A DNA stretch of 52,515 nucleotides from a virus, in IMG/VR virus record IMGVR_UViG_3300030331_006073, positions 1 to 52,515 of that record; one strand, written 5' to 3'. Every line of letters begins with the position of its first letter. The first letter of the stretch is position 1. The notes under the pieces are model-generated. The model made no database searches, was not told the origin of the DNA, and was given only the letters and a program-made list of their open reading frames with translations. A program made the position numbers and the translations under genes. Below, piece by piece: positions 1 to 52,515 of the stretch.

Positions 1-3000
1 GAAGAGCCTTTGGGGTTCTTGGATAATTTTTATGGAATAAATATTCCATCTAATGGCTCCGGAGCAAATACGGAAACAAAAAGACCGACCTTGGTAGCGA
101 ATTCTTTGCTTGACGCGAACGACATAGATAAAAACACAGAACGTTTTTACTCCAGTGGTTACTTCTATAATGATATGCCACTCGCCACCAGCATGAAAAC
201 AAGTGCATATGTCGAAGCTCAAAAGAATATTAACCCTCCCTTCATGGCCTTCGCACAGGATAGGCTAATTCATTCGTCGATAGAGGGTAATCCTCAAGAG
301 ATATTTAAAAATTTATATGGAGACTTTGGAGAAAATGAGGAGCTTTTCGAAGAAGCAAAAGGCCTAATGGACGCCGGTATTCTTAGTAACAAATCATACA
401 TTGAGGAGACCTACTTGGAAACAGTGTTTAATTTTACAGACCTTGGTTCTTTAATTTGTGGTCTTCGAAGTTCTTATAACATTGCAGAAACTTTTGATAG
501 GTCAATATATAGCTTCGAGGCCTCCGAAGAGCTTAAAAGGACGTTTGAAGGTTCTCTAAAAAATGTTTTAACATCTCTTGGGTATGAGTATGAACAGAGT
601 AATACAAGCCACTTTGAAATAGATAATTTCAAGGACGAGAAACTAACACAATACGGTAGAACCTTTTTCAAAATAAAGTCAGAAGATGAGAATGAAATAG
701 GTGACATCCGCATCGCGCGCCCCATGGGCATAGACCCTAATTCAAACATTAATCTAACACAAAGGGTTATTGTCAAGACCCCGTGGTCCACCTGCGAAAG
801 TCCAGAAAATTTTGTGTCCCGCGACGGGGACCTTGTCCAGACCGACCACAATGACAACGAACACAGATATACAATAGATTCAGTGCCGGAATATTGGAAT
901 GATTTCAAAACAGGTGTTTGGTCGCAGACTGACATAAATCAAGATAATCGCACAGTGACATTCGGCCGCCGAAAAGATGCAGTAGGCATCGGCCGAGTCG
1001 AAGGAAAATTTGCCCTATTGGAAAACCCGGGCGGTACCCGCCCGGAGCTTTCGAAAAGAGAGGCTTTTGTTACAAGTAGAAACGTGTTTGAAGTATCTAA
1101 AAATCTTTTTGAAAAGCCAACACTTTCTTTTGACAGAGATAGTGGAAAACACTCTCTCGAACTGAGCAGCAAGTCGAACAGACTAGCACCAAATTTATAT
1201 AAAATACCATTCAGGGTCCTTTTAACTCAGATTTTTAGAGAAGATGAGACTACGCCCTCAGAAGTTTATTGTAAAGTAGTGCCACCGTTGTATTTTGAGC
1301 CTGACCGCACAAATCAAGAATTGAGTAACATTCACAGCAAAGCTAGAAATAGCAATATAGGACAATTAAATAGAGCAGTGAAGAAGATAGCAGAGGAATA
1401 TGTCCGCCTTGCAAGAAGTGTGTCGTCATCTTTAATAGAAGAGGGAATACAAGAAATACCAGAAGAACAGCTCGCAGCGCTTGAAGAAGCACTCAGACGT
1501 GACCCTCACGGCGACCCTGAAGGTCTACACTTTCAAAATAATATAGTCCTACCAGTTGACACAATAAGAAGCAGCCCCGGACTCTCCCATTTTCCAGATT
1601 TTACTACTGATTTTGGCAACGGCTCAGATGCTCGCGGTGATAGCTACAGGAGCCAAACAGACCAAAATCTTTTGACAAATAATGTTGATGATATTTTAAA
1701 ACAAAACAAGTCTCATTTAGACCCTGGAAACTCTCGATTTGGCGGAAATAATGGCTCAAAACCACAATTTTGTTCAATCGAAAGAATATACTCAGAAGTG
1801 TTTAAAATAGAGACAGATTCAGAAAGTTTTAATTCAAGAATCGAGCTTGATGCTCTTTTCGCCAACCGCGGGGCCCTTGTCAAGCGGGAGAGCAGTGAAA
1901 TAAAATCTTCTATAATGTCCGCGGCCGATGACAAACATAATGACAAGAGAAGTTATCTTGAATCTAAAAATTATTTCTATACCAACACAAGGTGGGACTC
2001 AACCGGTCCAAGAATAGAGCTTACATCAGACACCGCTTTTCATCGAATGATTTTTAGCATGCACAATGTTTTAAACGAGTACATGAATTTTCGAGCTGCC
2101 GGTAAGTCTAGCTTTTGGGGTCTTCTTACTGAATATAGAGAAAAATTTTATACAGCTATTCCCCGGGCCTTCGACCGCGAAGCAGGACCCGGCGGCGACG
2201 ACGACCGCCTTAAAACAACCGGGACGCTACGACAACACAGAGACGCCATGGCCACCAGCGCGAGAAGAAACACTCCACATGCATTATTGTTTTCTAGGAT
2301 TAGCACAAAATACTTGGAAGAATACTCTAAAAAATTTGTTTTGAATGAGATAGGGGACCTTAATAAACCTCACATTTTTGATGAAGATATTATAGACTTT
2401 CAAGGAAAAATACATGAGGCTTTCAGAAAGGACTCTGGAGGCGCCTGGGAACCGCCAGAACATATGTTTTTTCATAAGCTGAAATCTGTATCTTCTGTTC
2501 TTGCAGGTCCTGACCCGGCCGATGAAGAATATAAACATGGAGCACTAAATGCAAATTTGTTGTCTTTTGGGGACAACACGCTTAAAAATATCCCAGCCGG
2601 CGCTTTCGAAGGGATGAAAGTAAGAAGAGTCTTGGGAGGGCTAACCTCTCGCAAAAAAGTGGAGCTCCCCGTATTGCCTGGTATTTCTGGGGTGTCAATC
2701 GATGTAGATATACCAAGTGGGAACACTCCGGAGGTGTTTTCCGTAAACGAACCCGGGGTAGTTATGCAGATTCCAAATATGCAAGATATTATAGAATTAA
2801 GGTCACAATTTTACAGGCCTTATAAAATTGAAGACAACTTAAGGGACAATATATTGACAAACCAGTTTTGCTCTTTCAAAAATCTTCTCCCAAAGAACAC
2901 AAGACAGGCAAGTAATGGGTACTATTTTGACGGCACTGGATACAATTTTGTAAACTACAATCAAATATCAGACTGTCACATTGATAGAAGGTATTCTTCT

Positions 3001-6520: not shown

Positions 6521-7021
6521 ATGACTGATTATGTCGGACCAGTTGGGCAAAGAATCGCACAACCAAATTGGCCCTTGTCTTTCGACGAGAACACGGGCCC
6601 TTACGCGCCAATCACAAATATAATTAAGTCAATAAGACAAGATTTTATAAACTTGTTAAGAACAAACCCAGGAGAATGGCCGAATGTTCCAGACCTGGGC
6701 GTCGGTCTAGAGAGACTTTTGTTCGAAAACTCACAACAGATAGACGTGGGAGACTTAAAGCAAAAAATACAAACTCAACTAAACAAGTATTTATCGTCTT
6801 TAAGAATAATTGATATCTCTTACGAGAGAATCCCGGATAACATAGATTTAAATTATGCTAAATTTACAGTGTTTTATTATATTGAAGACTTGGGCGAGGA
6901 CCAGACCTTAGTTGAATACGTTACAGACGCAGGCGGAAACTTTATTTTAGGTCGACAATCGGAACAATATGCAAGGCTGGCAACCTTTGCTCACGACCGC
7001 GGCCTGAGAGAGCAGCCATAG
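6521..7021 (+). CDS. gp25: gp25-like baseplate wedge subunit
   Basis: 166 aa, somewhat longer than T4 gp25. The protein has the gp25/W family layout: an N-terminal PLSFD stretch (18-22), GPYAPITNII (26-35), then the hallmark TNPGEWPNVPDLGVGL (48-63) and a FEN motif near residue 70. The family forms part of the baseplate wedge and contacts the first sheath ring, helping to start sheath assembly; it is structural despite older lysozyme labels. ATG 6521 follows AAGAGG. The gp6 gene begins 16 bases downstream, the same adjacency as in T4 and many contractile systems. A candidate late-promoter motif lies in the upstream gap. Confidence 0.93.
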   Translation: MTDYVGPVGQRIAQPNWPLSFDENTGPYAPITNIIKSIRQDFINLLRTNPGEWPNVPDLGVGLERLLFENSQQIDVGDLKQKIQTQLNKYLSSLRIIDISYERIPDNIDLNYAKFTVFYYIEDLGEDQTLVEYVTDAGGNFILGRQSEQYARLATFAHDRGLREQP

Positions 7022-7037
7022 TTACAGGAAACTATAA

Positions 7038-8858
7038 ATGAAAGATACAAAAGTAAGCAACAAAATAAAAGAAATAGATTATACAAAAACTAGTTTTTCC
7101 GAAATAAAAAATGAACTTGTTGGGTACATGAAGAGGCACTATCCCGATTCTTACAGGGACTTCAATAGAAGCTCCTTTGGTTCCTTGATGCTTGACCTTG
7201 TTTCGTATGTAGGTGACCAGCTGCACTATTATTCCGACCACAATGCTAATGAGGCAATACCAGCATTTACCAAAGACCCCGCCACCCTTATAAGCCATAT
7301 CAACTCTTTAGGAGGGGACCCACTAATAAATCCAGTTGCTGTTGGGTTTGTGGAGGTGCAAGTCTTGCGGCCTGCCATGGCCATCGGCCCCAGGGTAGAT
7401 TCTAAGTATGAAGTAGAGCTTCGTGCGGGCTCTAAGTATATGTCAAATGGTGGAACAGTTTACACACAAATAAAAGATATAACTTTAAGTGAGGCGAACT
7501 CAACCGTCATGGGTTATAATACGATTTTAGATGGTCGCAAAATAGAATTTTTTATTTTAAAAGCAAAAGTGCCTGTAATCTCGGGAGAAGAAAGAACCTA
7601 CACTGTCGATGTCGGAAACTTTCAAAGATTCTTAAAAATAGATGTACCTGATGATACTTTAACAGAAATTTTAAAAATAGAGGATAGCAACGGAAATGAA
7701 TACTTTCAAGTTGACCACCTAACACAAGATGTTATATATAAGCCGATACAAGACCCAATAAAAAGAGATTCCAATGTTTCTTCTATTTTGAAACCAACCC
7801 CGGTACCGAGAAGGTTTGTTGTGGAAAAATCACCATCAATAACAACGGTTGTATTCGGCCATGGCTCAGAAGAGGACCTAAACACAGCATCGGCTCTCGA
7901 CCCAAGCAAGGTCGCGCTGCAGCTTTCTGCAAAAAGTTACATATCCTCACAGAAAATTGACCCAAATAGATTACTCACAAATAATAAGTTGGGAGTTTCA
8001 CCACAAAATACCACCTTAACGATTACCTACAGAAGCAATACTTTGTTGAACACGAACGCAGCAGTAGGAACCATAACACAAGTTTTGGAGCCCATTTTAT
8101 TTTTTAAGAATGAAGAAGATTTAAATGAAGAAATTGTCAATTTTATAAGAGACAACGTACAGGTATTCAACGAAGAACCAATTAATGGAAACATCAGTAT
8201 ACCAACCACAGAAGAGTTAAAGAGAAGGTATCTAGGGGTATACGGAGCCCAAAATCGCGCGGTTACCAAGCAGGACTATGTTTCTGCCGTATATTCAATG
8301 CCGCCTATTTTTGGCTCTGTCAAGCGCGCCGCTGTTATCAGGGACACTAACGATTTAAAGAGAAATATAAATCTCTATTTAATATCGGAATCTGCAGCTG
8401 GAAAACTTGAAGCTCCGTCGGAACTGTTAAGAGAGAACACAAAAACATGGGTCGACTCAATAAGAATGATATCGGACAGCGTAGACATTTTTTCAGCAAA
8501 GATAATAAACTTCTCTATAGAATTCAATGTAAATTTGAAGACAAATGTGAATCAACAAACAACGCTGACGTTGATAAAAAACAAAATATTTGAAGAAATG
8601 TCAACTATTTTACCCGAAATAGGAGAACCGTTTTATATATCAAGTGTTATGAATATAATACAGAATATTCCAGAAGTTAGGAGCGTCCCTATAAGGGGCG
8701 GGGTAAAAATAAGAGCTCTATCTGGAGTGAATCATACAGATTTTAGATTTGATGTGAAAAGCAACACATCGCCTGACGAAAGCTTTATATATATACCAGA
8801 GGATGCTATTTGGGAGATTAAATTCATTGATGATATTAAAGGGACGGTTTCACAATAA
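7038..8858 (+). CDS. gp6: gp6-like baseplate wedge protein (baseplate J family)
   Basis: 606 aa, close to T4 gp6 length. The N-terminus (about 1-75) has the conserved pattern of gp6-type wedge proteins: YMKRHYPDSYRDFNRSSFG followed by LMLDLVSYVGDQLHYY and NEAIPAFT. The central segment has the YLGVYGAQNRAVTKQDYVSAV motif typical of baseplate J-like proteins, where a helical unit precedes the C-terminal dimerisation domain. Two gp6 copies per wedge form the iris that opens on contraction. The start ATG 7038 has AGGA upstream. The stop overlaps the next ATG by one base (TAATG), which implies translational coupling. Confidence 0.92.
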   Translation: MKDTKVSNKIKEIDYTKTSFSEIKNELVGYMKRHYPDSYRDFNRSSFGSLMLDLVSYVGDQLHYYSDHNANEAIPAFTKDPATLISHINSLGGDPLINPVAVGFVEVQVLRPAMAIGPRVDSKYEVELRAGSKYMSNGGTVYTQIKDITLSEANSTVMGYNTILDGRKIEFFILKAKVPVISGEERTYTVDVGNFQRFLKIDVPDDTLTEILKIEDSNGNEYFQVDHLTQDVIYKPIQDPIKRDSNVSSILKPTPVPRRFVVEKSPSITTVVFGHGSEEDLNTASALDPSKVALQLSAKSYISSQKIDPNRLLTNNKLGVSPQNTTLTITYRSNTLLNTNAAVGTITQVLEPILFFKNEEDLNEEIVNFIRDNVQVFNEEPINGNISIPTTEELKRRYLGVYGAQNRAVTKQDYVSAVYSMPPIFGSVKRAAVIRDTNDLKRNINLYLISESAAGKLEAPSELLRENTKTWVDSIRMISDSVDIFSAKIINFSIEFNVNLKTNVNQQTTLTLIKNKIFEEMSTILPEIGEPFYISSVMNIIQNIPEVRSVPIRGGVKIRALSGVNHTDFRFDVKSNTSPDESFIYIPEDAIWEIKFIDDIKGTVSQ

Positions 8859-22878: not shown

Positions 22879-25800
22879 ATGCCACAAAACTTTGACTTCG
22901 AAGTGCCGTTCCCAGACTATAGTGTGGAGAGGATTGTTTTTGAAGAAAAAAAAGTAACCTTACTTTGTTCAATGATGAGACCTCGAAACCAGAATAATTC
23001 AAGTTGGTTTTTATCGAGCAGGTTTCATCAATATATAAAGGTGTTTTTTGTAGTAAGCGAAAAGTTATCAGAAGAGCAGCTGATTAAATATAACTATCCG
23101 CAGTTCAGGGTTTCGGAGTGGTCATCAGCCTTAGAGGTGCCCCTTGAATCCTGGGAAGCTTGTACAGAAATTAACGAAGGTAGCAACGGCCGCCCAGCAA
23201 TATTTGGAAGAACGATAACTAGCTTAGAAGAACTGGTACAACAAAAGCAGTTGCTTCAACAAAATTTATACGCATCTATTAACGATGATGCAGTAACACA
23301 AGAGAATATCGTAGGTTCAATATCTAGTGACCACTATTTTGAAGTTGAGGTAGATTTCCCTTCTATAGAAAAATTAGACTTGGACGCTTACAGTAGCTCT
23401 TCTCTTGACGTTTTTTCTTTTATGCATATAGATGTTGAAAGAATGAAAGAAGATTTCAACTTAGGTGTAAATGCTGGTGAGATTATTGGCATCGGCGGCC
23501 GCTTTAAGTACGACAAATGCTTGAGAAAAGTAGACGAAGATATGCCCAGCGAAAGACTAGAGGTCATCGAAAACGTAAATGCACTTTTCAGGGAAAACGG
23601 CAGTGCATATAGCGGCATGGCGCACTACCATAGAGACGAAGACGGCGAACGCGGCCCTGGTGGCTATGTTGGTTGGATGTCCGGACCCGGTCCCGGCCTC
23701 GGCTTTCCAGGGGTGGTAGAGGAGATGGAGAATAGAGAGAGGCTCACGGCGCGCCCAGTTAAGAATACAAAAGTTGTCTATAACCTTGTACATAACCCGC
23801 TAGATTACACAGGTCAGTCGCTTTTGGGTAACAGAAATTTACAAAACACATACGACGGGTATGAGATTGGCCAATCTTTTGGCTTAGGTCTCTTGGCCCC
23901 CGTTAATACTCCTCATGTTTCCTTGGGAGAAGAGTTGATAGCCCACGTCCGCGCACAAATAGGCCAAATTGGCATGGTTGGAGATATAGGAACTTCAATA
24001 TATAGAGAAAAATTAGAGAATGCCGCAATAGGCTCAATAAGAAATAGTAAATTTAGCGTGATGGATACTTCTGTCGACCCCGACCTTTTATCTTCCTTGA
24101 TAACAGAACCGTTTACCGACAGGACACATTACCTGTCTATAATGACGATTAATTGTGATGATGTGCTAATGCACAATTCTAGATTCGGTCACATATTCCG
24201 CAATATTATGGAAAATACACTACCTGAAATATCCAACCCAATCCTTGACGACATGATTGCGCTTTGTGAAATTTCCGATTTTACAGTAAAAAGAAGAAGA
24301 GTAACAAGAATGCCATTATCTAATAATTTTTCGTCAACGGGTAAAAGGGAAGAATACGACTCTGATGAGCCTAGAAAGTTAATGATTTACTGCCCCGGCG
24401 ATTCAGAGCCCGATAATGTACGAGCTGGCTTCTCAATAGCAACCAGAGAGAATCAAAGGTGCTCAATAAGTCAGTCGCAATCTCCAGATAGGCTCAAAAG
24501 GGTGTACCAATTTAAAGATTATGACCTCTGGGAGAACATAGACTATGGAACTTACGAATACATAGTAAGCATCAACTTCAAAGACGGCGTAAGGGAATAT
24601 CTTGTCAGTCTGTATCAGGAATATTCTCGTTTTCTTGCAGAATATTTAGACTTTGTAAAGGAGGCGTCAATACCATATTTGGACTACAGGAACTCAGACT
24701 ACTACCAGGGTCATCAATTTGAAGACTTATTTGCTGAGCGCGTTGCCCAAAGGCAGTTTAGGAGTTCTGGAAATTATATAATTGGCCAAGATAGATTTAC
24801 AAGAGAATTTGCACAAGCAAAAAACAGGGGGGACCTTCCTCCTCAATCGGTCGAAAATATTGTTAATGTATACCTGAGAACACTGATTATACTTGGGATA
24901 ACACCTTTTAGCCTTAGTCTTCTCGACCCAAACGCGGCCGTACAACAAGAAGACATGAGAACACTTTTGCTCGAAAAGCTCAAAGTAAATAAAGCCACCT
25001 TAAAAACTTATGAATTTTTCTATGAACTCTTCTCTTACACATTAAAAGTTTTAGAGAAAGTCACATTTTTAAGAAAATACAGCAGATACTCACAGCTGAA
25101 CTTTGACAGCTCTTCAAAGTCTTTAAAATCAACCATTGACGTTCCTTCAAACCAAGTATCGCTAGAAGCTCCGTGCAATGCTTCGGTTAATACTATTCCT
25201 AAAAATGCAATTTTAGTGGAACCAGCAATTCCAATAGTAGGAGATGTTGTTGAGATACCAGGGGCTTTTTCTCCCAACGCAGGTCTGGGTGCAGTATTTT
25301 CAATAAGAAATTTTCGCGGTGGCTTAAATTCAGATAATCCCAATTTTCGGGCAATAAGCGGCAACCGTATAGAAATTGTTTCCCCTGTTGAGGTTTTTGA
25401 TGGTTCGGTTTCTAGGGCGGATGCAGAAGCAAGAATTTTCGCAGCAATAGAAGCATCAACAGTGGGCTCTATTGATATTCCTGGTAGAGAGCTTATGAGA
25501 GACCCTTTAAAGCTTTTCAATAACACCATGGCATCCCAGGGGGGCATCACCTTTGAATCTATGGCAACAAAGATTATGGTTATAAGGGAAGACGAGACGA
25601 CAAGCGAGAAAAACAACCACATGAACGTAGACATGCAGAAAACTCTTTTAACAGAAATATTGAACTCTGAATCCGGTGAAGATTTTGAAAAGAGGATTGA
25701 TGATGTGTATAAGGATTATTACTACACAAAGGAGGGTCTGGGGACCTTGTTTGATACAGTAAAGAGTGTTATGACGATTGCAAAAGTTTCACAAAAAATA

Positions 25801-26193
25801 AGCACAAAGTCTACGTTTAAGGATATAGTCATGTCCGGAGATACCGAGTCAGACTACAGGCACAATCAGCGCGACCGACGGAATTCCGCAAGAACATCAA
25901 TTATGGATATTGGTTTTGTTTTAAGTAAGTATGTTATAGGCTCTGGCCTTCAAATCTCTGGGGCAGATTCAAATATTGGTATATATATTCCAGAATCCAA
26001 ATTACCAGCCGGATTACATTTAGTTAATAAAATAGTAGTTTCCTCTGGTTCACTGAACGGTGCAGTAGCTCAAAGCAATTCCCCTACTCGACGGGCTTCA
26101 ACAAGCGCAACCACCCCTACAGGCACAGGTGCACAAACATCTGGACGTACCACTAGTTCAAATTATGGAGGAGGAGGAGGTTCTAGTTACTAA
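22879..26193 (+). CDS. Large tail/baseplate structural protein, function unknown
   Basis: 1104 aa, ATG 22879. No family recognised. The first 170 residues have a compact mixed fold (VERIVFEEKKVTLLCSM, then an acidic beta region). The central part (about 530-740) is strongly helical, with many Tyr and Glu residues and possible coiled segments around the LLLEKLKVNKATLKTYEF region. The last 45 residues are Ser/Thr/Gly-rich and end in a run of Gly followed by Ser-Ser-Tyr, a flexible low-complexity tail. No signal peptide or membrane segment. Its location among tail genes makes a virion role likely. Alternatives such as an enzyme are not supported by any visible catalytic motif. Confidence 0.65.
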   Translation: MPQNFDFEVPFPDYSVERIVFEEKKVTLLCSMMRPRNQNNSSWFLSSRFHQYIKVFFVVSEKLSEEQLIKYNYPQFRVSEWSSALEVPLESWEACTEINEGSNGRPAIFGRTITSLEELVQQKQLLQQNLYASINDDAVTQENIVGSISSDHYFEVEVDFPSIEKLDLDAYSSSSLDVFSFMHIDVERMKEDFNLGVNAGEIIGIGGRFKYDKCLRKVDEDMPSERLEVIENVNALFRENGSAYSGMAHYHRDEDGERGPGGYVGWMSGPGPGLGFPGVVEEMENRERLTARPVKNTKVVYNLVHNPLDYTGQSLLGNRNLQNTYDGYEIGQSFGLGLLAPVNTPHVSLGEELIAHVRAQIGQIGMVGDIGTSIYREKLENAAIGSIRNSKFSVMDTSVDPDLLSSLITEPFTDRTHYLSIMTINCDDVLMHNSRFGHIFRNIMENTLPEISNPILDDMIALCEISDFTVKRRRVTRMPLSNNFSSTGKREEYDSDEPRKLMIYCPGDSEPDNVRAGFSIATRENQRCSISQSQSPDRLKRVYQFKDYDLWENIDYGTYEYIVSINFKDGVREYLVSLYQEYSRFLAEYLDFVKEASIPYLDYRNSDYYQGHQFEDLFAERVAQRQFRSSGNYIIGQDRFTREFAQAKNRGDLPPQSVENIVNVYLRTLIILGITPFSLSLLDPNAAVQQEDMRTLLLEKLKVNKATLKTYEFFYELFSYTLKVLEKVTFLRKYSRYSQLNFDSSSKSLKSTIDVPSNQVSLEAPCNASVNTIPKNAILVEPAIPIVGDVVEIPGAFSPNAGLGAVFSIRNFRGGLNSDNPNFRAISGNRIEIVSPVEVFDGSVSRADAEARIFAAIEASTVGSIDIPGRELMRDPLKLFNNTMASQGGITFESMATKIMVIREDETTSEKNNHMNVDMQKTLLTEILNSESGEDFEKRIDDVYKDYYYTKEGLGTLFDTVKSVMTIAKVSQKISTKSTFKDIVMSGDTESDYRHNQRDRRNSARTSIMDIGFVLSKYVIGSGLQISGADSNIGIYIPESKLPAGLHLVNKIVVSSGSLNGAVAQSNSPTRRASTSATTPTGTGAQTSGRTTSSNYGGGGGSSY

Positions 26194-36069: not shown

Positions 36070-39000
36070 ATGAGATTTGCTCATATTGCGGATACCCATA
36101 TCCGGAATCTAAAATATCACTTTGAATATAGAGAAATATTCAAGCAATTATATAAATCATTAAAAGAAGAAAAAGTAGATTACATTATTCATTGCGGAGA
36201 TATCGCACATACCAAAACACAAATATCGCCAGAGTTTGTGGATATGTGTCGTGAGTTTTTTGAAAACTTAGCAGCTATTGCACCAACATATATTATATTG
36301 GGAAACCATGACGGCAATTTAAGAAACGACAGCAGACAAGATGCTCTGTCTCCAATAGTTAAAGCTATTAATAATTCAAACTTATCATTGATTAAAAATG
36401 CAGGAGAAGTTAAGCTTAACAGTGACTTCTGTTTAAATGTGCTATCAGTATTCGATGAGGATAACTGGACCAAGCCAACAGACAAAAGCCTTGTTAATAT
36501 TGCGCTTTATCATGGAGCAATAAACAAATCTAAGACGGATAGTAATTGGACTCTGGGCGGAGACCACAGTATAGAAATTTTTGAAGAGTTTGACTTTGCC
36601 TTCCTTGGAGATATTCACAAAACACAAAAATTAGACAAAGATGGTCGAATTTGGTATGCTGGTTCAACTGTTCAGCAAAACTTTGGTGAATCTCTAGATA
36701 AGGGTTATTTACTTTGGGATATAGAAAGTAAAAACGAGTTCACTAACAAGCTTATTACTTTTAATAATCCAAAGCCTTTTGTAACGCTAGAACTAACCAA
36801 AGCAGGGAATTTACCAAGAAAGAAACCACCGGCAGGTGCCAGACTTCGTATTGTTTCCGACGAGAATGTGACCCTTGACAAAGTAAGAAAAGCAGTTGAT
36901 ATTGTTAAATACAAATATAAGCCAGAGTCAGTAACTTATCTTAACAGAGCCGCCGGCAAACAGATAACAGTTCAAGCGCCTAAGGGTTTAAAAAAACAAG
37001 ACCTTCGTGACCTCAAAACACAAGAGATTCTAATGCAAGAGTATTTAAAAGAATACGATGTCACCGATGAAGTTATGGCCAAGGTCTATGATTTGAACAA
37101 AAAGTACAATGTTCAAATTGAAGAAGGAGAAGATGTACTTAGAAATGTACACTGGTCCCTGCAAAGCTTAGAGTGGGATAATTTATTTAACTACGGAGAG
37201 GGAAATAATATTGATTTCACCAAACTAGAGGGGATTGTAGGTATTTTCGGCAAAAACTATTCAGGTAAGTCTTCTATTGTAGATACTTTGTTGTATTCTC
37301 TTTATAATTCAACTAGTAAATCTATTAGAAAAAATTTAAATATTATAAATCAGAACCGTGATAATTGCACAGCCACCGCAACCATAAAGATTGATGATAA
37401 TGAATATGTTGTAGAGAGGGTCTCTAAGAAATATACCAAGCGCCTTAAGGGGGCCGAGACTCTAGAGGCGAGCACTGACCTTGAGTTTTACAGAAAAGAC
37501 CTCACAGGAAATGTAGAGGGCCTCAATGGAACCTCCCGACAAGATACAGACAAGAACGTAAGAAAGTATTTTGGCACATTAAGTGATTTTCTTATGACTT
37601 CTATGGCTAGTCAGCTTGATTCACTATCGTTTATTAACGAGGGCTCCACAAAGCGTAAAGAATTCTTGGCTAAATTTCTTGACCTACAAATCTTTGATAA
37701 GAAGTTTAAAATGGCAAAAGAAGATTCTGCTATGACTAAGGTAGCCCTAAGAAGACTAGAGGGTACCGACTTTGAGACACAAATATCTGAACTCAAAAGA
37801 GATATCATAAAAAGCGAGCTTAGTATTGAATCTAACAAGGCATCATGTTCAGATATCAGGGCTGTTATATTAGACGCTAACAAAGAATTGTTGGCAGTAG
37901 AAGCAAAGATTGAGTCGGTACCAGCTGAAATTATAGACCCTGTAATGACCTCACGCGCTATCAAAACAAAAGAAAAAACAATTCTTGGTATTACTTCTAA
38001 AAAAACAAAATCTATAGAAGAGCTTAGGCTTAGTGAAGAGAGGTATGAAAAGATTGCAAGCTTTGTAGGAAAGTTTGATATTGCATCATATACGCAAAAG
38101 AAAGAGCTTATTACTCAGAATAAGAAAAAGATAGAAGAACTTATTCATAGTATTAAGCTACAAAGCGAAGAGAGGGATAGAAACCTGAAAAAACAAAACC
38201 TACTGAAAGAGGTACCTTGCGGCTCTCAATTTCCTTCTTGCAGATTTATTAAAGACGCACACCAAGCAGGAGACTTAATTCAGATTTGTGAGTCTAGAAT
38301 TGCTACACTATCTAGAGATGTGAACAAAACAGGAGAAGCTTTAAATCAGAATGACCCAGAAACAATTGAAAGCCATATAGAGAAATATAATCTACTTCTA
38401 GAGAAAAGAAACGTTTTAGCTACAAGTATCGCTAACAACAAGTTGTTTATTGAAAAAGCAGAAAGTTCTTTATTTAAAGAACAAGTTGAGTTACAGGAGC
38501 TTCAAAGCAAGAGCTTTGAGTACGAGCAAAACAAAGATGCAATTGAAAACTTAAAAGACCTAATTAAGTCTCGAGATGAAAAAAAAATATTTATTCAAGA
38601 GTGTGAATTGAAATTACAAGATTGTGAAAATAAAATTATGACTTTACATAAGAGACACGGTTCGTTAGAGCAAAAATTGAGGCACCTAGAGCAGGGCTTT
38701 GAAGAATATGAAACCCTTAAAGATGATTTTGCGGCTTATCACCTGCTTATGACCTGTTGCCACCCTAATGGTGTTTCATATGAGATTATTAAAGAGAGGC
38801 TGCCTTTTATTAATCAAGAAATTGCCAAGATACTTACAAATATTGTTGACTTTGAGGTTTTTATTACTAATTCTGATGACAAGCTTGATATTCTTATTAA
38901 ACACCCTAGACATGATGCAAGACCACTAGAGATGGGTTCCGGCGCAGAAAAGACTATTGCAGCAATGGCAATTAGGCTAGCCTTTCTTACAGTTTCAAGT

Positions 39001-39207
39001 TTACCAAAGTCCGACCTATTTATATTAGATGAACCCGGCACCGCCCTTGATGAAGAAAATATGGAGGGCTTTGTTAGGATTTTAGATATGATAAAGGGAT
39101 ATTTTAAGACAGTTATTCTTATTTCACATCTAGACAATTTAAAAGATTGTGTTGATATGCAAATTAATATCGAGAGAAAAGATGGATTTGCATACGTTAA
39201 TGTATAG
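36070..39207 (+). CDS. gp47/gp46: Fused Mre11/SbcD-Rad50/SbcC recombination nuclease (gp47-gp46 fusion)
   Basis: 1045 aa in one chain. The N-terminal phosphoesterase has every Mre11 motif: D8-x-H10 (ADTH), GDIAH with D44, GNHD at 78-81, His148 in LYHGA and GDIH at 180-183. A linker region (about 235-360) corresponds to the capping domain. The Rad50 part begins with Walker A GKNYSGKSS (394-402). It continues through two long charged coiled coils around a Cys pair at 717 and 724, and ends with signature GSGAEK (956-961), Walker B FILDEP (984-989), D-loop ALDEEN and His1020. In T4, separate gp46 and gp47 process DNA ends for recombination-dependent replication and degrade host DNA. The gene has its own sigma-70-type promoter and a strong GGAGG. 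Confidence 0.92.
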   Translation: MRFAHIADTHIRNLKYHFEYREIFKQLYKSLKEEKVDYIIHCGDIAHTKTQISPEFVDMCREFFENLAAIAPTYIILGNHDGNLRNDSRQDALSPIVKAINNSNLSLIKNAGEVKLNSDFCLNVLSVFDEDNWTKPTDKSLVNIALYHGAINKSKTDSNWTLGGDHSIEIFEEFDFAFLGDIHKTQKLDKDGRIWYAGSTVQQNFGESLDKGYLLWDIESKNEFTNKLITFNNPKPFVTLELTKAGNLPRKKPPAGARLRIVSDENVTLDKVRKAVDIVKYKYKPESVTYLNRAAGKQITVQAPKGLKKQDLRDLKTQEILMQEYLKEYDVTDEVMAKVYDLNKKYNVQIEEGEDVLRNVHWSLQSLEWDNLFNYGEGNNIDFTKLEGIVGIFGKNYSGKSSIVDTLLYSLYNSTSKSIRKNLNIINQNRDNCTATATIKIDDNEYVVERVSKKYTKRLKGAETLEASTDLEFYRKDLTGNVEGLNGTSRQDTDKNVRKYFGTLSDFLMTSMASQLDSLSFINEGSTKRKEFLAKFLDLQIFDKKFKMAKEDSAMTKVALRRLEGTDFETQISELKRDIIKSELSIESNKASCSDIRAVILDANKELLAVEAKIESVPAEIIDPVMTSRAIKTKEKTILGITSKKTKSIEELRLSEERYEKIASFVGKFDIASYTQKKELITQNKKKIEELIHSIKLQSEERDRNLKKQNLLKEVPCGSQFPSCRFIKDAHQAGDLIQICESRIATLSRDVNKTGEALNQNDPETIESHIEKYNLLLEKRNVLATSIANNKLFIEKAESSLFKEQVELQELQSKSFEYEQNKDAIENLKDLIKSRDEKKIFIQECELKLQDCENKIMTLHKRHGSLEQKLRHLEQGFEEYETLKDDFAAYHLLMTCCHPNGVSYEIIKERLPFINQEIAKILTNIVDFEVFITNSDDKLDILIKHPRHDARPLEMGSGAEKTIAAMAIRLAFLTVSSLPKSDLFILDEPGTALDEENMEGFVRILDMIKGYFKTVILISHLDNLKDCVDMQINIERKDGFAYVNV

Positions 39208-41222: not shown

Positions 41223-42809
41223 ATGTCTTTCTCTCTTTCCAAGAAAGAAGTGATGAGAGAAATAGTCAAGTGCGGCAAAACTCCGGATTATTTTATAAAT
41301 ACATACGCTAAAATAACCCATCCGCAAAAGGGCTTGATTCCTTTTCACTTATATGATTTCCAAAAAAAACTATTGGAAGACTTTCAGGATTATAGATTCA
41401 ACGTTATATTGAAAGCCCGGCAGCTTGGAATATCTACAATTTCCGCGGCGTATGTTGCTTGGCTAATGATGTTCCACAGAGAAAAAAATGTATTAGTTAT
41501 AGCGACAAAGTTTAATACGGCAGCAAATTTAGTAAAAAAAGTAAAAGCAATAATAAAGAACCTTCCAGACTGGCTCAGAATATCGAATGTAGACATAGAC
41601 AATAGGACAAGCTTCGTATTATCAAACGGCTCTCAGATAAAAGCGTCGTCAACCTCTGGTGACGCTGGCCGCTCCGAGGCTTTGTCTTTACTGGTGATAG
41701 ACGAAGCTGCCCACGTTGAGGGCCTTGAGGAGCTCTGGATGGGCCTTTATCCAACTCTATCAACAGGCGGCCGCTGCATCGCACTCTCAACGCCAAACGG
41801 CGTCGGAAATTGGTTTCATAAGATATATAGCGAATCTGACTCCGGGGAAAATGATTTTCACCCTACTGTGCTCCCATGGAGTGTGCACCCAGATAGAGAT
41901 AAAGCCTGGTTTGAGAAAGAGACTAGAAACATGTCTCGCAGGGAGATTGCTCAAGAGTTAGAGTGCAATTTCAACATGTCCGGTGAGACGGTCTTTTCTC
42001 CTGAAGACTTAGAAAAATATGGTAACCTTTGTGTCGACCCCGAATATAGGACTGGTTTTGATAGAAATCTTTGGATTTGGGAAAAGAGGAAAGACGAAAA
42101 GAGTTACTTTATATCGGCTGATGTTGCTCGTGGGGATGGCAAGGATTATTCCACAGCGATAGTTTTTTGCACAGAAACTATGACCGCAGTAGCAGAGTAC
42201 AAAGGCAAGTGCACTCCAGATATATTCTCTAGGGTCTTATATGACCTAGGAGTTGAATACGGAAACGCGCTTTTAGTGGTTGAAAACAACACAGTTGGCT
42301 TTGCTGTGTTAGAAAAATTGAGAGAATCAGAGTATCCCAATCTTTACTATTCTATAAAGAGTACACATGAGTTTGTCGAAGAGTACCAAGCAGAAAACAT
42401 GAACAACGCTGTTGCGGGCTTCTCAATGACTTCTAAGACACGTCCGCTAATAGTCGCAAAGATGGAAGAATTTATAAGAAATGGCCTAATTACATTGTAT
42501 TCAGCCAGAATGTTGTCGGAAATGAGGACATTTATTTGGAACAATGGGCGCCCAGAGGCTATGAGGTCGTATAACGATGATTTAATAATGGCTTGTGCAG
42601 TTGGTTGCTGGATTAGAGACACTGCTCTATCGGCTAATAAGAGACAATTAGAGTATAACAAAGCGTTCATTGGTGGTATAATGAGAAGCACCAACGAACT
42701 CGACACCAGAATAAAAGGAATGATAGGCACAAAGAACATGAAAATGTCAGAAACCCTAAAAAATCATCAAAAAGTAAGCACGCAGTTCCCATGGTTATTG
42801 AAGGGGTAA
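41223..42809 (+). CDS. gp17: Terminase large subunit
   Basis: 528 aa, ATG 41223. N-terminal ATPase: a Walker A variant KARQLGIST (64-72) of the kind found in T4-type terminases, Walker B LLVIDEAA with Asp160/Glu161, and coupling motif STPNGVGNWF (189-198). C-terminal RNase H-fold nuclease: Asp300 in SADVARGDG, Glu354 in LVVEN and Asp452/Asp453 in YNDDL form the metal site. The enzyme cuts concatemeric DNA and drives it through the portal by ATP hydrolysis (headful packaging in T4). It is slightly shorter than T4 gp17. The portal gene begins after three bases; sheath and tube genes, which lie here in T4, are absent. Confidence 0.97.
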   Translation: MSFSLSKKEVMREIVKCGKTPDYFINTYAKITHPQKGLIPFHLYDFQKKLLEDFQDYRFNVILKARQLGISTISAAYVAWLMMFHREKNVLVIATKFNTAANLVKKVKAIIKNLPDWLRISNVDIDNRTSFVLSNGSQIKASSTSGDAGRSEALSLLVIDEAAHVEGLEELWMGLYPTLSTGGRCIALSTPNGVGNWFHKIYSESDSGENDFHPTVLPWSVHPDRDKAWFEKETRNMSRREIAQELECNFNMSGETVFSPEDLEKYGNLCVDPEYRTGFDRNLWIWEKRKDEKSYFISADVARGDGKDYSTAIVFCTETMTAVAEYKGKCTPDIFSRVLYDLGVEYGNALLVVENNTVGFAVLEKLRESEYPNLYYSIKSTHEFVEEYQAENMNNAVAGFSMTSKTRPLIVAKMEEFIRNGLITLYSARMLSEMRTFIWNNGRPEAMRSYNDDLIMACAVGCWIRDTALSANKRQLEYNKAFIGGIMRSTNELDTRIKGMIGTKNMKMSETLKNHQKVSTQFPWLLKG

Positions 42810-42812: not shown

Positions 42813-44831
42813 ATGTCAAACAATAAAAATAAAAATAATCCAAGAAACACTCAAAGTGTCCTCTTTAGGCGCCTAACCAGACTCCTGTCCGGACCATTAG
42901 TCAACTACAGGACACAGACAAGTCACAGGCTGAGAAGAATGGATTTGGACAGGTATGCCACAAAGTTCACTTCAGCTTCTGGGGCGGACTTCAAGAAAAC
43001 AGCGTATAACCCATATGACAATCTCCAGGCCCAAGCGATGGCAGCGCAAGCTAGAACGGAAAGGTATGTCGATTTTGACCAAATGGAGTACACACCAGAA
43101 ATAGCCTCTGCTCTAGATATATTTGCAGACGAGATGACAACTTATAGTGCCTTGAATAAAGTTCTAGGTATAAATTGTGATAATGAAGAGATAAAGCTAA
43201 TTTTAGAATCGTTATATTATGATATACTAAACATAGAATATAATTTGTTTTCTTGGTGCCGGTCGATGTGTAAATACGGGGACTTTTTCCTGTACTTGGA
43301 CATTGATGAAAATTTAGGAATAACCTCAGCAATTGGGCTACCCACCTCAGAATTGGAAAGAATGGAGGGCGAAGATAAGACAAACCCCAACTATGTCCAA
43401 TTTCAGTGGAATTCAGCAGGCTTAACATTAGAGAATTGGCAGATAGCACACTTTAGAGTTCTCGGTAACGATAAATATAACCCTTACGGAACATCAGTGC
43501 TGGAACCAGCCAGAAGAATCTGGCGCCAGCTGACTCTTTTAGAGGATGCAATGATGGCTTACAGGATTGTTCGTTCTCCTGAGCGCCGCGCTTTCTATAT
43601 TGATGTTGGTAATATACCTCCACAAGACGTAGAGCAGTATATGCAAAAAGCTATGACACAAATGAAGAGAAATCAAGTGGTCGACCCAGATACTGGCAGG
43701 GTAGATTTAAGGTATAACCCACTCTCAGTAGAGGAGGACTATTTTATACCCGTTCGTGGAGGTACGAGCGGAACTAAAATAGAGTCTATTGCAGGGGGAA
43801 AGTACACCGGAGATATAGATGATGTTAAGTATCTTAGAGATAAACTCTTTTCTGCATTAAAAATTCCAGCTTCTTATTTAAGCTCCGATGCAGAAAAAGC
43901 CCAAGAAGATAAATCAACTTTGGCGCAAAAAGATATTAGATTTGCCAGAACAGTGCAGAGGCTTCAAAGGTCAATAATTTCTGAGTTGGAAAAGATAGGC
44001 GTAATTCACCTTTATACTCTGGGGTATAGAAGTGAAGACTTGGTCAGCTTCAAGGTTAAGTTAAATAATCCATCAAAGATATCAGAGATGCAAGAATTGG
44101 AACACTGGAAAACCAAGTTTGATATAGCCTCTTCAGCGACAGAAGGGTTCTTCTCGAAACAATGGCTAGCGAAAAGATTGTTTGGTATGAGTGATGATGA
44201 ATTCCTGAGAAACAGAAGGGAGATGTTCTATGATAGGCGCTTCGAAGCCGCTTTAGAGACTGCAGCAGAAGCAGAACAGGCTGCAGCGACAGCCCCCGGA
44301 GGAGAGTTCGCAGCTGATATGGGCGAACCAGGAGGCACAGGCACGGCTGGAATGGAACCAGAACTAGGCGCCCCAACGACCGAGACCCCAGGGGCCCCAC
44401 CTGAAGCAGCGCCGGCTGCAGCCCCAGACGCTGGCGGCGCCGCCCCTGATGGTGGCCTTTTGGCAGCTCCTCCAGCAAAGAGAGACGACAAAGGACGCCA
44501 AGTAAAAAAGGAAAAAGGCAAGGTTAAAACTACGACAGAGAAGTCTCACGGCTGGTACGAGCCTAGGTTAAACTCCCCGGGTGGAGACAGAAGAGGCACT
44601 TCCGGCCCGAGAAAGAAGAATATGAATAGAGCAGCTACACCAGAAACCGGAACATCAAGGAAAGTATACCCAGGATATAGCGAATTAACGGGCTTGGCCA
44701 AGGGAACTAGTATTTACGAATCAAAGAAAACTAATTACTCTGAAGAGGAAGAAAAAAGACTCTTTGAACAAGAAGAGGAGCTAAAGAAACTGTTTGAAAA
44801 TTTAGACTTTACATCGAGGAAAAATAAATAA
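42813..44831 (+). CDS. gp20: Portal vertex protein
   Basis: 672 aa, ATG 42813, AAGGGG upstream. T4 gp20-type portal: residues 70-95 DFDQMEYTPEIASALDIFAD, then CRSMCKYGDFFLYLDI, HFRVLGNDKYNPYG and ARRIWRQLTLLEDAMMAYRIVRSPERRAFYIDVGN (here split only for naming), and KIPASYLSSDAEKAQEDKSTL. The dodecamer forms the DNA channel, nucleates the prohead and docks the terminase. After residue about 480 the chain becomes Ala/Pro/Gly-rich, then Lys-rich and Glu-rich, an extension of about 150 residues that looks disordered. Its stop overlaps the next ATG by one base. Confidence 0.96.
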   Translation: MSNNKNKNNPRNTQSVLFRRLTRLLSGPLVNYRTQTSHRLRRMDLDRYATKFTSASGADFKKTAYNPYDNLQAQAMAAQARTERYVDFDQMEYTPEIASALDIFADEMTTYSALNKVLGINCDNEEIKLILESLYYDILNIEYNLFSWCRSMCKYGDFFLYLDIDENLGITSAIGLPTSELERMEGEDKTNPNYVQFQWNSAGLTLENWQIAHFRVLGNDKYNPYGTSVLEPARRIWRQLTLLEDAMMAYRIVRSPERRAFYIDVGNIPPQDVEQYMQKAMTQMKRNQVVDPDTGRVDLRYNPLSVEEDYFIPVRGGTSGTKIESIAGGKYTGDIDDVKYLRDKLFSALKIPASYLSSDAEKAQEDKSTLAQKDIRFARTVQRLQRSIISELEKIGVIHLYTLGYRSEDLVSFKVKLNNPSKISEMQELEHWKTKFDIASSATEGFFSKQWLAKRLFGMSDDEFLRNRREMFYDRRFEAALETAAEAEQAAATAPGGEFAADMGEPGGTGTAGMEPELGAPTTETPGAPPEAAPAAAPDAGGAAPDGGLLAAPPAKRDDKGRQVKKEKGKVKTTTEKSHGWYEPRLNSPGGDRRGTSGPRKKNMNRAATPETGTSRKVYPGYSELTGLAKGTSIYESKKTNYSEEEEKRLFEQEEELKKLFENLDFTSRKNK

Positions 44832-46587: not shown

Positions 46588-46605
46588 TAAATTGGAAAAT
46601 TTATT

Positions 46606-47214
46606 ATGAAGTTAATAAGAGAATATTACGAATTATGTGACGGTGGAATTTGCCAAGACTTACTGACAGAGTCAGAAAAGAAGTTTGTTGCTGAAGGCGG
46701 CTGTATTTTGTCTGGGCTGATGCAGGAGGCAGAAGTCAAGAACGGCAACGGTCGAACTTATCCGCTATCAGTTTTGCAGAGAGAAGTTGCGCTTTATGAG
46801 AAGCTCGTTAGAGAGGGGCGCGCCCTTGGTGAGTTGGACCATCCTGAGTCTTCTGTAATCAATTTGGTAAATGCCTCTCATATTGTTACCGCAATATGGA
46901 TGGACGGCCCAAAGTGTTATGGTAAGATAAAGGTCCTGCCCACCCCGTCCGGAAAGATACTGCGGTCGCTAGTAGAAAGTGGAGTATCTCTTGGCATATC
47001 TTCCAGAGGCCTGGGGTCCCTGGAAGAGAGAAATGGAATATCAGAAGTTCAGGACGACTTTCAGTTAATATGTTTTGATATGGTGTCAGACCCATCTACA
47101 CCCGGAGCGTTTATGGGACTCACAGAATCTAAAGACCGCCCAAATATATTTACCAAAAATGACAAAGTCAACAGAGCGCTTGATAATATATTGTATAAGT
47201 TCGGCAAGAAATGA
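46606..47214 (+). CDS. gp21: Prohead maturation protease
   Basis: 202 aa, close to T4 gp21. Herpesvirus-assemblin-like serine protease signature: LSGLMQEAEVKNGNGRTYP, then GELDHPESS with the likely catalytic His79, SHIVTAIW, and SLGISSRGLGSL with the nucleophile Ser132 or Ser133. The protease is built into the core, cleaves scaffold and capsid proteins after L/I-x-E motifs, and then destroys itself. Expected targets in this window are gp22 and gp23, and the latter has LRE and LLE sites near residues 48-59. Ribosome site is weak; a leader ORF and a hairpin precede it. Its stop overlaps the next start (ATGA). Confidence 0.93.
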   Translation: MKLIREYYELCDGGICQDLLTESEKKFVAEGGCILSGLMQEAEVKNGNGRTYPLSVLQREVALYEKLVREGRALGELDHPESSVINLVNASHIVTAIWMDGPKCYGKIKVLPTPSGKILRSLVESGVSLGISSRGLGSLEERNGISEVQDDFQLICFDMVSDPSTPGAFMGLTESKDRPNIFTKNDKVNRALDNILYKFGKK

Positions 47215-47624: not shown

Positions 47625-47648
47625 AAACAGAAAAAAGGATACTTTAAA

Positions 47649-47888
47649 ATGGGAAAGAGAACTCCAGTACACGCAGAAGTGTATATAAGAGACCAGCAGC
47701 AGTTTGAGAGAATGCTTAAAAAGTTTACTAAAAAAGTAAAAAAATGTGGTATTCTTGATGAAGTCAAAGAAAGAAGATACTATACAAAACCTTCAGTTAA
47801 AAGAAGAAACAAAAAATTAGAAAAGAAGAGACTAATTAAAAAAGCTGTGGAAAAAGAAAAAAATAAACTTTCCAACGAATATAAGTAG
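47649..47888 (+). CDS. rpsU: Ribosomal protein bS21 homologue
   Basis: 79 aa, ATG 47649 with AAGGA. Highly basic. The pattern of bS21 is present throughout: FERMLKKFTKKVKKCGILDEVKERRYY, then KPSVKRRNKK followed by a Lys/Arg helix. It compares closely with the bacterial pattern F-x-x-x-L-x-R-F-K-R ... G-[IV]-L-x-E-[VL]-[RK]-x-R-x-[YF]-x-K-P. Bacterial bS21 is about 70 aa and sits on the 30S platform near the anti-Shine-Dalgarno end of 16S rRNA. Phage copies are known from other large aquatic phages and may replace the host protein to bias initiation toward phage mRNAs. It lies in the head operon, 24 bases after the previous gene, and would thus be made late. Confidence 0.9.
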   Translation: MGKRTPVHAEVYIRDQQQFERMLKKFTKKVKKCGILDEVKERRYYTKPSVKRRNKKLEKKRLIKKAVEKEKNKLSNEYK

Positions 47889-47900
47889 AGGTATTATATA

Positions 47901-48368: not shown

Positions 48369-48378
48369 GGTTTAAGTA

Positions 48379-49527: not shown

Positions 49528-49563
49528 CCATTCAAAAAAATCTTTCTCTTAAAAAAACGAAAT

Positions 49564-49571
49564 ACTATTTA
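49564..49571 (+). promoter_or_regulatory. Intergenic ACTATTTA motif upstream of gp22-gp23
   Basis: Lies in a 102-base gap and ends 58 bases before ATG 49630. AGAAACTT follows after five bases (49577-49584), as at the gp25 site. This is a candidate late promoter for scaffold and major capsid genes, which need the highest expression. Confidence 0.42.
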
Positions 49572-49629
49572 TTTAGAGAAACTTTTGTTATCGGTGTATT
49601 AGTGTAATATTTTCGGGAGTTAAAACACA

Positions 49630-50838
49630 ATGTCAAGTTTATTAGAAAGAGCCATTATTGATGCCACAGCGCTTAAGGAAGCTGCCCTTAAGACCGCAGA
49701 AAATACAATAATTGAGAAATATTCCAACGAAGTTAAAGATGCGATGGATAGGCTCTTGGAGCAAGAGGGCGACCCTTTCGCAGCCACAGACGCGTCGCTT
49801 TCCGACCCAAACCCAATGGGAATGGGCAATATGGAGCTAGATACCGACACCGACATGGGCATGGAAGATGCTGGAATGGACCCCGGCTTAGAAGATGACC
49901 TCGATACAGATACACCAGAAGAGGAAGAAGATAACTTTTTTGACCAAATTCCAACAGGTTTTGACCCGGACCTCACTGACCCAGAAGATGAAATCATCAA
50001 CATAAAGTTAGATTCTCTAAGAGCCGAGCTTCCAGATGAAGAAGAGGTTGGTGTTTTCGGCGGAGATGACGAACTTGAGGATGACGAAATTGGAATTGAC
50101 GTTCAAGACGATGATGAAGAGTTAGACTTTGAAAATGAGTTTGGCGATGACGATGATGGGCTTGAGATAGAAGATGACGATGTTGAGGTAAATGCAGACG
50201 AACTAGAGGGCATGATATCAGAAATCATAAACAACCTAGACCTTGACGACGATACTGATTCCGAGCTTGAAGAAGCCGTCAGGGTTGACTTCGAGCCTCA
50301 AAAAAGCGGATGGGCAGGAACCCCTGAGTCTATCATGCGCGAATACGAATCTATGTTACTTGCGAGAGAGCAAGATAGCGAAGTAAAAGAAGAAAACGAA
50401 GAGCTGCGCAAAACAGTAGCAGCCTTACAGAAAGAAAACAAAACTTTAGGAACTGTTGCCACAAAATTAAAGGCACAGATAGAAAAATACTCTACAACAC
50501 TTGAAACTTTGCAAGAAAAGTTGGAAACCACGAATGTTTCTAACGCGAAGTTGTTGTACATTAACAGAGCTTTAGAAAATGCCTCCCTGAATGAGCGACA
50601 AAAAGAGAAAATTGTCGAAGCCATTTCAAAAGCCGAAACAATACAAGAAGCAAAGATAGTTTTTGATACACTCGAAGATACAATCACTTCTTCCCCTGCA
50701 GAGAAGAGGTCTGGTGGTTTAAACGAGGCCGTTTCAAGACGTTCAACGTTGCTTGTAAATGCTCGAAGCGAGCAAAGGCAAAAGGTTGCTAATCCTGTGT
50801 ATGATAGATTACAGAAATTAGCAGGGATAAAAACATAA
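49630..50838 (+). CDS. gp22: Prohead core scaffolding protein
   Basis: 402 aa, ATG 49630, GGGAG upstream. Helical N-terminus (SSLLERAIIDATALKEAALK), an extremely acidic middle (about 55-220, runs of Asp/Glu), then a coiled coil (about 240-325) and a basic C-terminal helix (YDRLQKLAGIKT). Acidic, helical, and immediately upstream of gp23: the standard profile of the T4 gp22 core protein that shapes the prohead and is later degraded by gp21. The C-terminal segment with NRALENASLNERQKEKIVEA is typical of gp22-like proteins. The family is recognised by layout more than by motif. Confidence 0.85.
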   Translation: MSSLLERAIIDATALKEAALKTAENTIIEKYSNEVKDAMDRLLEQEGDPFAATDASLSDPNPMGMGNMELDTDTDMGMEDAGMDPGLEDDLDTDTPEEEEDNFFDQIPTGFDPDLTDPEDEIINIKLDSLRAELPDEEEVGVFGGDDELEDDEIGIDVQDDDEELDFENEFGDDDDGLEIEDDDVEVNADELEGMISEIINNLDLDDDTDSELEEAVRVDFEPQKSGWAGTPESIMREYESMLLAREQDSEVKEENEELRKTVAALQKENKTLGTVATKLKAQIEKYSTTLETLQEKLETTNVSNAKLLYINRALENASLNERQKEKIVEAISKAETIQEAKIVFDTLEDTITSSPAEKRSGGLNEAVSRRSTLLVNARSEQRQKVANPVYDRLQKLAGIKT

Positions 50839-50864
50839 AATAACATTTTTGGAGGTAATATATA

Positions 50865-52515
50865 ATGTCTGTTTTACAGAGACTTACAGAAGGTGTTGTT
50901 CAGCGTAACGTTCAGAAGGAAGGTGAAGCTCTACTTAACAAGTGGGAGCAGACCGGTCTTCTTGAAGGTCTTAACGAGGGACAGCAGAAGCAGGGAATGG
51001 CCGTCCTGCTTGAAAACCAGGCTAAGGAGCTTCTCCGTGAGGCTTCATCTATGGCAGCTGGCGATGTCGAAGGCTTCGCAGCAGTTGCTTTCCCAATCGT
51101 TCGTCGTGTATTCGGTGGATTGATTGCAAACGATTTAATCTCGGTTCAGCCGATGAGCTTGCCATCTGGCCTCATCTTCTTCCTTGATTTTACGCATGAA
51201 TCAGCTCGTGGCGGAGCCGCGGCTGGCGAGTCGGTATACGGCGGAAACGTTGTTGCACGCGGCTTGACTGGCGGTGTGGACCTTTCTGGTCCTGCAGGAC
51301 GCCTAGGGGCAGACGGCCCAGGTGGACATTACGATATGGGCCATCGCGCCGCTCAGGCAACGGCATCGGTTTTTCTCGCAATAGACTCATTCGCCCCGGC
51401 CGACGCAACGACTGCCTTGGGCTTGGTCACTGACGTGTCAGCTTCTCTTGTTTCTGGATTAACAGAAGTTCAAAAGAAAGCTATTAGATACGATGCTGAT
51501 ATTCTAGCCGATGGCGGTGTTGTTACAATTTTGGCACACACCGGGACTGTTGCTACTTTAAATGCGAAAATTGGTTCACCAATTGATGAAGAAGCTCTCG
51601 CTGCTTTCGGAACTGATTACTCGCCAGCTGCCGACCGCGCCTCTACTATCGTCCGTCGTCTCACTCGTGTTGAGGGAGATAAGGTAATTGTAGTTCTTCA
51701 CGATAAAGATGGCACTGCAGGCCTTGCCAACCAAGGCTTCACATCAGGTTCTATCGGCGGCGGCGGCGCGGGTATTGATGAGGCCATGGCATTTAAGTTT
51801 CCAATCAAGGACGACTTGCAGCCAGGTAATGGTCTTGGGTCTGTTATTGGTCAGGATGTTTGGGGCCTTGAAGAGCCACAGCCTGGTACCGGAAATGCTG
51901 GTAACAGCGTAGGCAAGAACACGATTCCAGAAATCGACATCAAGGTTGACAGCATCGCTGTTACCGCTCAGACAAAGAAGTTGAAGGCAAAGTGGTCCCC
52001 AGAATTGGGTCAGGACCTCAATGCTTATCACAACTTGGACGCTGAGGTTGAGTTGACTGGTATTCTTTCTGAGCAAATTGCTTTGGAAATTGACCGTGAG
52101 CTTCTTGGTGAGCTTGTTCAGGGTGCAACCGCCGGTACTCGTTACTGGAGCCGTGCACCAGGTCTTTTTGTTGACAGCAATGGTGCCGAACTCGGCGCCC
52201 AATCTGCAGCACCTGACTTCACTGGTACGGTTAGTGAGTGGTATGAGACACTCATTGAAACCATCAATGACGTTAGCGCTCAGATTCACAGAAAGACACT
52301 TCGCGGTGGTGCAAACTTTGTTGTTTGTTCACCAGAAGTTGCTAACATCCTTGAGTTCACCAGTGGTTTCCGCGCAAGCGTAACTGCTGACCAGGACCGT
52401 GGCACCATCGGTGCTGTTAAGGCTGGTAGCTTGAGTAAGAAGTTCGACGTTTACGTTGACCCATACTTCTTGCGAAACGTAATCCTCGTTGGCCGTAAGG
52501 GTAGCTCGTTCCTCA
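50865..52515 (+). CDS. gp23: Major capsid protein, 3' partial
   Basis: ATG 50865 with GGAGGT at 50851-50856; 550 codons are open to the window end. T4 gp23-type HK97-fold capsid protein: FAAVAFPIVRRVFGGLIAND (71-90), then LISVQPMSLPSGLIFFLDF (91-109), a hallmark of the family. The first 60 residues form the delta domain, with gp21-type cleavage candidates LLE (48-50) and LRE (57-59); cutting at the latter would start the mature protein at Ala60. Codon choice differs from all neighbours, with many CGT, GGT, CTT and CAG codons and few AGA, as expected for the most abundant product. The missing part lies beyond the right edge. Confidence 0.97.
   Translation, partial: MSVLQRLTEGVVQRNVQKEGEALLNKWEQTGLLEGLNEGQQKQGMAVLLENQAKELLREASSMAAGDVEGFAAVAFPIVRRVFGGLIANDLISVQPMSLPSGLIFFLDFTHESARGGAAAGESVYGGNVVARGLTGGVDLSGPAGRLGADGPGGHYDMGHRAAQATASVFLAIDSFAPADATTALGLVTDVSASLVSGLTEVQKKAIRYDADILADGGVVTILAHTGTVATLNAKIGSPIDEEALAAFGTDYSPAADRASTIVRRLTRVEGDKVIVVLHDKDGTAGLANQGFTSGSIGGGGAGIDEAMAFKFPIKDDLQPGNGLGSVIGQDVWGLEEPQPGTGNAGNSVGKNTIPEIDIKVDSIAVTAQTKKLKAKWSPELGQDLNAYHNLDAEVELTGILSEQIALEIDRELLGELVQGATAGTRYWSRAPGLFVDSNGAELGAQSAAPDFTGTVSEWYETLIETINDVSAQIHRKTLRGGANFVVCSPEVANILEFTSGFRASVTADQDRGTIGAVKAGSLSKKFDVYVDPYFLRNVILVGRKGSSFL

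Follow-up and report, generated by a model that had tools for sequence, protein, structure and literature searches.

A T4-like phage genome free of GATC, probably through long selection by GATC-specific restriction

The DNA considered in this study, referred to below as the window, is the full 52,515 bp of IMG/VR virus record IMGVR_UViG_3300030331_006073, which is classed as linear. It carries a set of T4-like genes, all of them on the plus strand. Two baseplate genes of a T4-like structural module occupy positions 6521–8858, one gp25-like (6521–7021, PF04965) and the other Baseplate_J-like (7038–8858, PF04865). A gene for an SbcCD-like nuclease (36070–39207) and the gene for the terminase large subunit (41223–42809) were recognised by PHROG matches, and the latter was used, with a tree, to place the virus among its relatives. 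There follow genes for a T4-like portal protein (42813–44831, phrog_213), which itself lacks GATC, for a head maturation protease (46606–47214, phrog_207), and for a Gp23-like major capsid protein (50865–52514; PF07068, E = 7e-56, and PHROG) that continues past the end of the window.

Two further contigs extend the window. IMGVR_UViG_3300030099_008032 (G001, 68,582 bp) is 99.998% identical to it over 52,507 bp, lengthens it by 16 kb, and contains the capsid gene whole (L086:10858–12693). IMGVR_UViG_3300030331_006142 (G035, 130,653 bp), reached via a non-structural gene of a relative, overlaps G001 by 16,173 bp at 99.994% identity and contributes 114 kb more. Summed contig by contig with overlaps counted once, the total comes to 183,062 bp. 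This uncultured marine phage is a T4-like myovirus with a genome of at least about 183 kb; it is probably lytic, and its hosts are probably marine Bacteroidota. The nearest cultured phages, judged by terminase, are the Flavobacterium immuto phages, at 44.7% identity. Positions 1–25,000 of the window found no near match at the DNA level among named phages, and a tail protein (22879–26193), when used as a query for relatives, matched only the virus itself.

The additional 114 kb (L339–L344) encode GroEL-like, GroES-like and small heat-shock proteins, a B12-dependent ribonucleotide reductase, a DnaE-type polymerase, IMPDH, a PurA-like protein, UvdE, and NeuB and other polysaccharide genes. There is also a tmRNA (L340:16487–16797; Rfam RF00023, 128 bits), with the tag ANDDVENFEDFALAA. 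Similar tags occur in the tmRNAs of four relatives, G010, G012, G015 and G005 (L103, L138, L153 and L093), and the tag might prove useful in tracing the host.

An earlier note, made from the sequence of the window alone, had claimed that GATC is completely absent from its 52.5 kb. A string count bears this out: 0 instances, where a maximal-order (trinucleotide) Markov model predicts 123.8 and base composition 185.5. GATC is its own reverse complement, so the window is without it on both strands. When all tetramers are compared with expectation, the lowest after GATC is CACG, at 0.70, and the remaining 15 palindromic tetramers, including the GGCC, CATG, AGCT and TCGA that the note had seen to be present, range from 0.92 to 1.23. 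The extension contributed by each of the two further contigs also has 0 GATC. Over the whole virus the expectation is 461 (Markov) or 651 (composition), and GATC is the sole depleted tetramer in the window and extension contigs together. Depletion of GANTC has been described in one pelagiphage subgroup (PMC9516812); in the virus this sequence occurs 644 times against an expected 652, nor is any palindromic tetramer besides GATC depleted.

The loss is equally plain in the choice of codons. In a control that permutes synonymous codons, keeping the proteins and the overall codon pool fixed, 200 shuffles of the window gave 151.9 ± 8.9 GATC with a minimum of 122, which places the observed 0 at z = −17. 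Two parts of the whole virus gave 191 ± 10 and 286 ± 13 by the same procedure. The erasure is detectable in each of the three codon frames. Aspartate before C is encoded in the window by GAC 154 times and by GAT 0 times, just as the earlier note had read it for codons starting with C, whereas asparagine in the same position is encoded by AAC 81 times and by AAT 90 times. Isoleucine after G is ATC in 0 of 180 cases, and serine after xGA is TCN in 0 of 24. In the whole virus the corresponding figures are 418 GAC and 0 GAT for aspartate before C, and 0 ATC in 562 for isoleucine after G. About 8,700 tetramers of the virus are one substitution short of GATC, so new sites must arise continually, and their absence implies that they are continually being purged.

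Could the absence have been produced by sequencing, assembly, library preparation or composition? I regard this as scarcely credible. The Markov comparison and the codon shuffles rule out an effect of composition or codon use, and all other tetramers are normal. The virus was recovered from two datasets, at 99.99% identity and with its reading frames intact, and a viral contig (L213) from the dataset that yielded G001 (3300030099) has 36 GATC in 7.2 kb, a normal content that rules out a fault of that dataset.

To see how sites were lost one must turn to relatives, which were gathered from IMG/VR, 80 by terminase and a further 80 loci by the SbcCD-like protein. Those with terminases 81–84% identical to that of the virus have mostly near-normal GATC. 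A set of 33 relatives forms the sister group of the virus in the terminase tree, and most of these again have near-normal GATC. The loss is therefore specific to the lineage, and the GATC-keeping relatives in this range of identity allow the mutational path to be read site by site. In DNA alignments, the window has kept none of the GATC positions of four relatives: 0 of 30 (G015), 0 of 51 (G010), 0 of 38 (G011) and 0 of 47 (G014). Control palindromes at aligned positions are mostly retained at about 10–55%. The single-base differences found at the relatives' GATC sites are in the majority synonymous (20:3, 28:5, 21:6 and 23:4), and third-base T-to-C changes are among the most frequent. The loss of GATC is thus specific to a palindrome, largely synonymous and confined to the lineage.

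The SbcCD-like protein may have a different history from that of the terminase. It is 91–92% identical to proteins of three loci (L179, L180 and L013) whose contigs bear GATC at 0.65, 0.64 and 0.23 of expectation. Set against the placement of the virus in the terminase tree, this match suggests gene exchange with GATC-bearing relatives, in which the imported genes would have been cleaned of the site as well.

In order to view the loss in a wider setting, I surveyed 132 distinct contigs of the clade, each of at least 10 kb, counting a tetramer as eliminated if it fell to 5% of expectation or less. Eliminations number 29 out of 2040 testable palindromic tetramers but only 6 out of 31,157 non-palindromic ones. 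The palindromes lost are GGCC (11 contigs), GATC (6), CGCG (6), AGCT (4), TCGA (1) and CCGG (1). These are tallies of contigs rather than of independent events: the virus itself accounts for two of the six GATC contigs, and losses are shared between kindred contigs. Among the six non-palindromic eliminations, four concern AGCC or GGCT and fall in contigs where AGCT too is missing; taken together, these sequences make up RGCY, a specificity known for CviJI. The other two are of GACC, with both strands depleted.

Several members of the clade deserve individual mention. A 184-kb relative (G008; L111–L120) has 0 of 589 expected AGCT and 11 of 531 GGCC with normal GATC, and it encodes two families of adenine methyltransferase, PF05869 (Dam) and PF02086. 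A 75-kb contig (G036) is without GATC, CCGG, CGCG and GGCC, and its AGCT is nearly gone. In L207, L272, L288 and G036 (L346–L349), AGCT, GGCC, AGCC and GGCT are nearly or wholly missing, which fits avoidance of RGCY by a CviJI-like specificity. Both GACC and GGTC are down in L216, L217 and L073 (in L216, GACC 1 of 44 and GGTC 6 of 39); a loss from one strand only, considered for L216 and L217, is ruled out by the depletion of both. In relative G005, where GATC stands at 0.24 of expectation, a gene for a Mom-family DNA-modification protein lies at about 66,570–67,400 (L255–L257). Finally, two more distant relatives of low GC content come from bins labelled Flavobacteriales (L359; GATC 0 of 45, TCGA 0 of 20) and Pelagibacteraceae (L360; GATC 1 of 35, TCGA 1 of 12); their deficits indicate that loss of GATC is recurrent in the wider group.

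The variety of palindromes lost across the clade is what restriction predicts, and not what would be predicted by a process specific to GATC, such as mismatch repair. This bears on the alternative offered by the earlier note, that the virus avoids Dam-dependent functions of its host, either escaping nicking by MutH during methyl-directed mismatch repair or evading sequestration by SeqA. A precedent exists in phiX174, which lacks GATC completely and whose mutation rate is lowered, via MutH, when sites are restored (PMC5014478), and in the present virus it is indeed GATC alone that is missing. Nonetheless, the authors of that work doubt that mismatch repair was the only driver even in phiX174, and the loss of GATC alone that the alternative predicts across kin is not what is found, since related lineages have lost GGCC, CGCG, AGCT, TCGA, CCGG or RGCY, instead or in addition. 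I consider avoidance of Dam-dependent functions unlikely.

A phage may be protected from restriction by modifying its DNA. The earlier note had proposed looking for a phage Dam gene, and none was recognised: profile searches and protein scans of G001 and G035 revealed no DNA methyltransferase (PF02086, PF05869, PF01555 for N4/N6, PF00145 for C5), nor was any Mom protein or restriction nuclease recognised in the virus by these means. The PF05869 and Mom profiles were searched against contigs G000 and G001, and G035 was covered by general Pfam scans, one of which took in the best 25 of 29 families. DNA containing 2-aminoadenine was also considered and rejected: the adenylosuccinate synthetase of the virus scores 277 bits as PurA and 137 bits as PurZ. 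With self-protection by Dam, another methyltransferase, Mom or PurZ thus finding no counterpart in G001 and G035, the virus, to judge from its gene content, seems to rely for protection on having no sites.

Having no sites would equally protect a phage that attacked the DNA of its host or of rival phages with a GATC-specific nuclease of its own. Many small genes of G035 (about 55–79 kb) belong to no recognised family, and restriction nucleases evolve fast enough that profiles can miss them. Pfam and PADLOC searches of the virus, though, gave no match to DpnII, MutH/Sau3AI, DpnI or PADLOC restriction families, and I judge a nuclease of this kind to be very unlikely. Were there one, lineages of the clade that lack a different palindrome would be expected to encode nucleases of correspondingly different specificity.

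Restriction by a host supposes hosts with the appropriate enzyme. A scan of bacterial genomes by terminase alignment found related terminases in six metagenome bins, at 44–70% identity, two of them labelled Flavobacteriaceae or Flavobacteriales. This, together with the infection of Flavobacterium by the immuto phages, places the host, weakly, in Flavobacteriia. One related terminase, 67% identical to that of the window, is found within a record of 2.8 Mb that bears the title candidate division WOR-3 bacterium chromosome (L357), probably phage sequence that was merged into a genome bin.

I surveyed candidate enzymes in 399 genomes from the family of the first terminase bin. DpnII-family nucleases with strong scores occur in about 8 of these flavobacterial genomes, and in both loci read by eye a D12-type methyltransferase adjoins the nuclease gene. 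Two-domain nucleases of the MutH family occur in 13, their reading frames mostly 463–481 amino acids long. That is the size of Sau3AI and not of MutH, a further point against a role for mismatch repair. Full-length or near-full-length matches to DpnI were found in 2. The DpnI matches lend something to the idea that a different defence keyed to GATC was responsible, either DpnI-type restriction acting on phage DNA that a previous host had methylated, or restriction based on phosphorothioation at GATC, and the signature of selection would be identical; yet DpnI is much rarer in these genomes than DpnII and Sau3AI-type genes, and I give such a defence a low probability. Altogether, GATC restriction genes are present in about 5% of the sampled genomes, a rarity that requires exposure to have been locally strong or repeated. 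The GATC-specific systems that the earlier note proposed looking for in candidate hosts do occur among flavobacteria, as DpnII and Sau3AI types, but four bacterial genomes bearing related terminases gave no match to DpnII, and no GATC restriction gene was found in them.

The absence of GATC is, in my judgement, best accounted for by long selection by GATC-specific restriction in past hosts, an explanation I hold to be quite probable. It is argued for by a loss that is complete, palindrome-specific, largely synonymous and confined to the lineage, by the loss of other restriction-type sites among kin, and by the lack of a recognisable methyltransferase. Three marks of Type II site avoidance are found here: near-complete genome-wide absence, specificity for a palindrome and point changes that spare proteins. 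Host lineages with a Type II enzyme of the DpnII/MboI or Sau3AI type would cut incoming unmethylated phage DNA, and phages with fewer GATC sites would more frequently survive entry. Point mutations that destroy sites would be retained and fresh sites purged, and genes acquired from GATC-bearing relatives would need the same cleaning. The earlier note had favoured restriction too, and the pattern of sites and the losses across the clade support it best; the agent and the host are themselves inferred. Its corollary, that the absence constrains the range of hosts, finds no support, because the loss of sites takes away a barrier and would give wider access to restricting hosts. The missing sites differ by lineage (GATC, GGCC, CGCG, AGCT, TCGA, RGCY). 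Taken as traces of the restriction specificities that each lineage encountered, they provide a computable clue to the hosts and defence history of uncultured phages.

Adaptation of this kind, against restriction, is already known, and the virus is an unusually complete and very clean case of it. In each of the 46 phages with a host that encodes the enzyme, GATC is rarer than expected, and about one tenth of viral genomes have completely or almost completely lost an orthodox Type II site (PMC6286503). The present case differs from these in its length, since its 183 kb are among the longer stretches without GATC that were counted in this study, and in having GATC-bearing relatives against which individual sites can be compared. 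Closest in kind is Staphylococcus phage K (Kayvirus), which is reported to have eliminated GATC from its 140-kb genome, avoiding Sau3A (PMC6532042); I counted 0 in 50 kb, with 112 expected. Both are large phage genomes from which GATC has been eliminated, but the two are unrelated, and the host and enzyme, known for phage K, are here inferred. PhiX174 shares the total absence of GATC; it differs in being a 5.4-kb enterobacterial phage of a host with Dam and MutH, whereas the clade of the present virus loses further palindromes lineage by lineage. The closest cultured relative, Flavobacterium phage vB_FspM_immuto, is likewise T4-like, but its GATC content is normal, with 172 instances observed and 178 expected in 50 kb.
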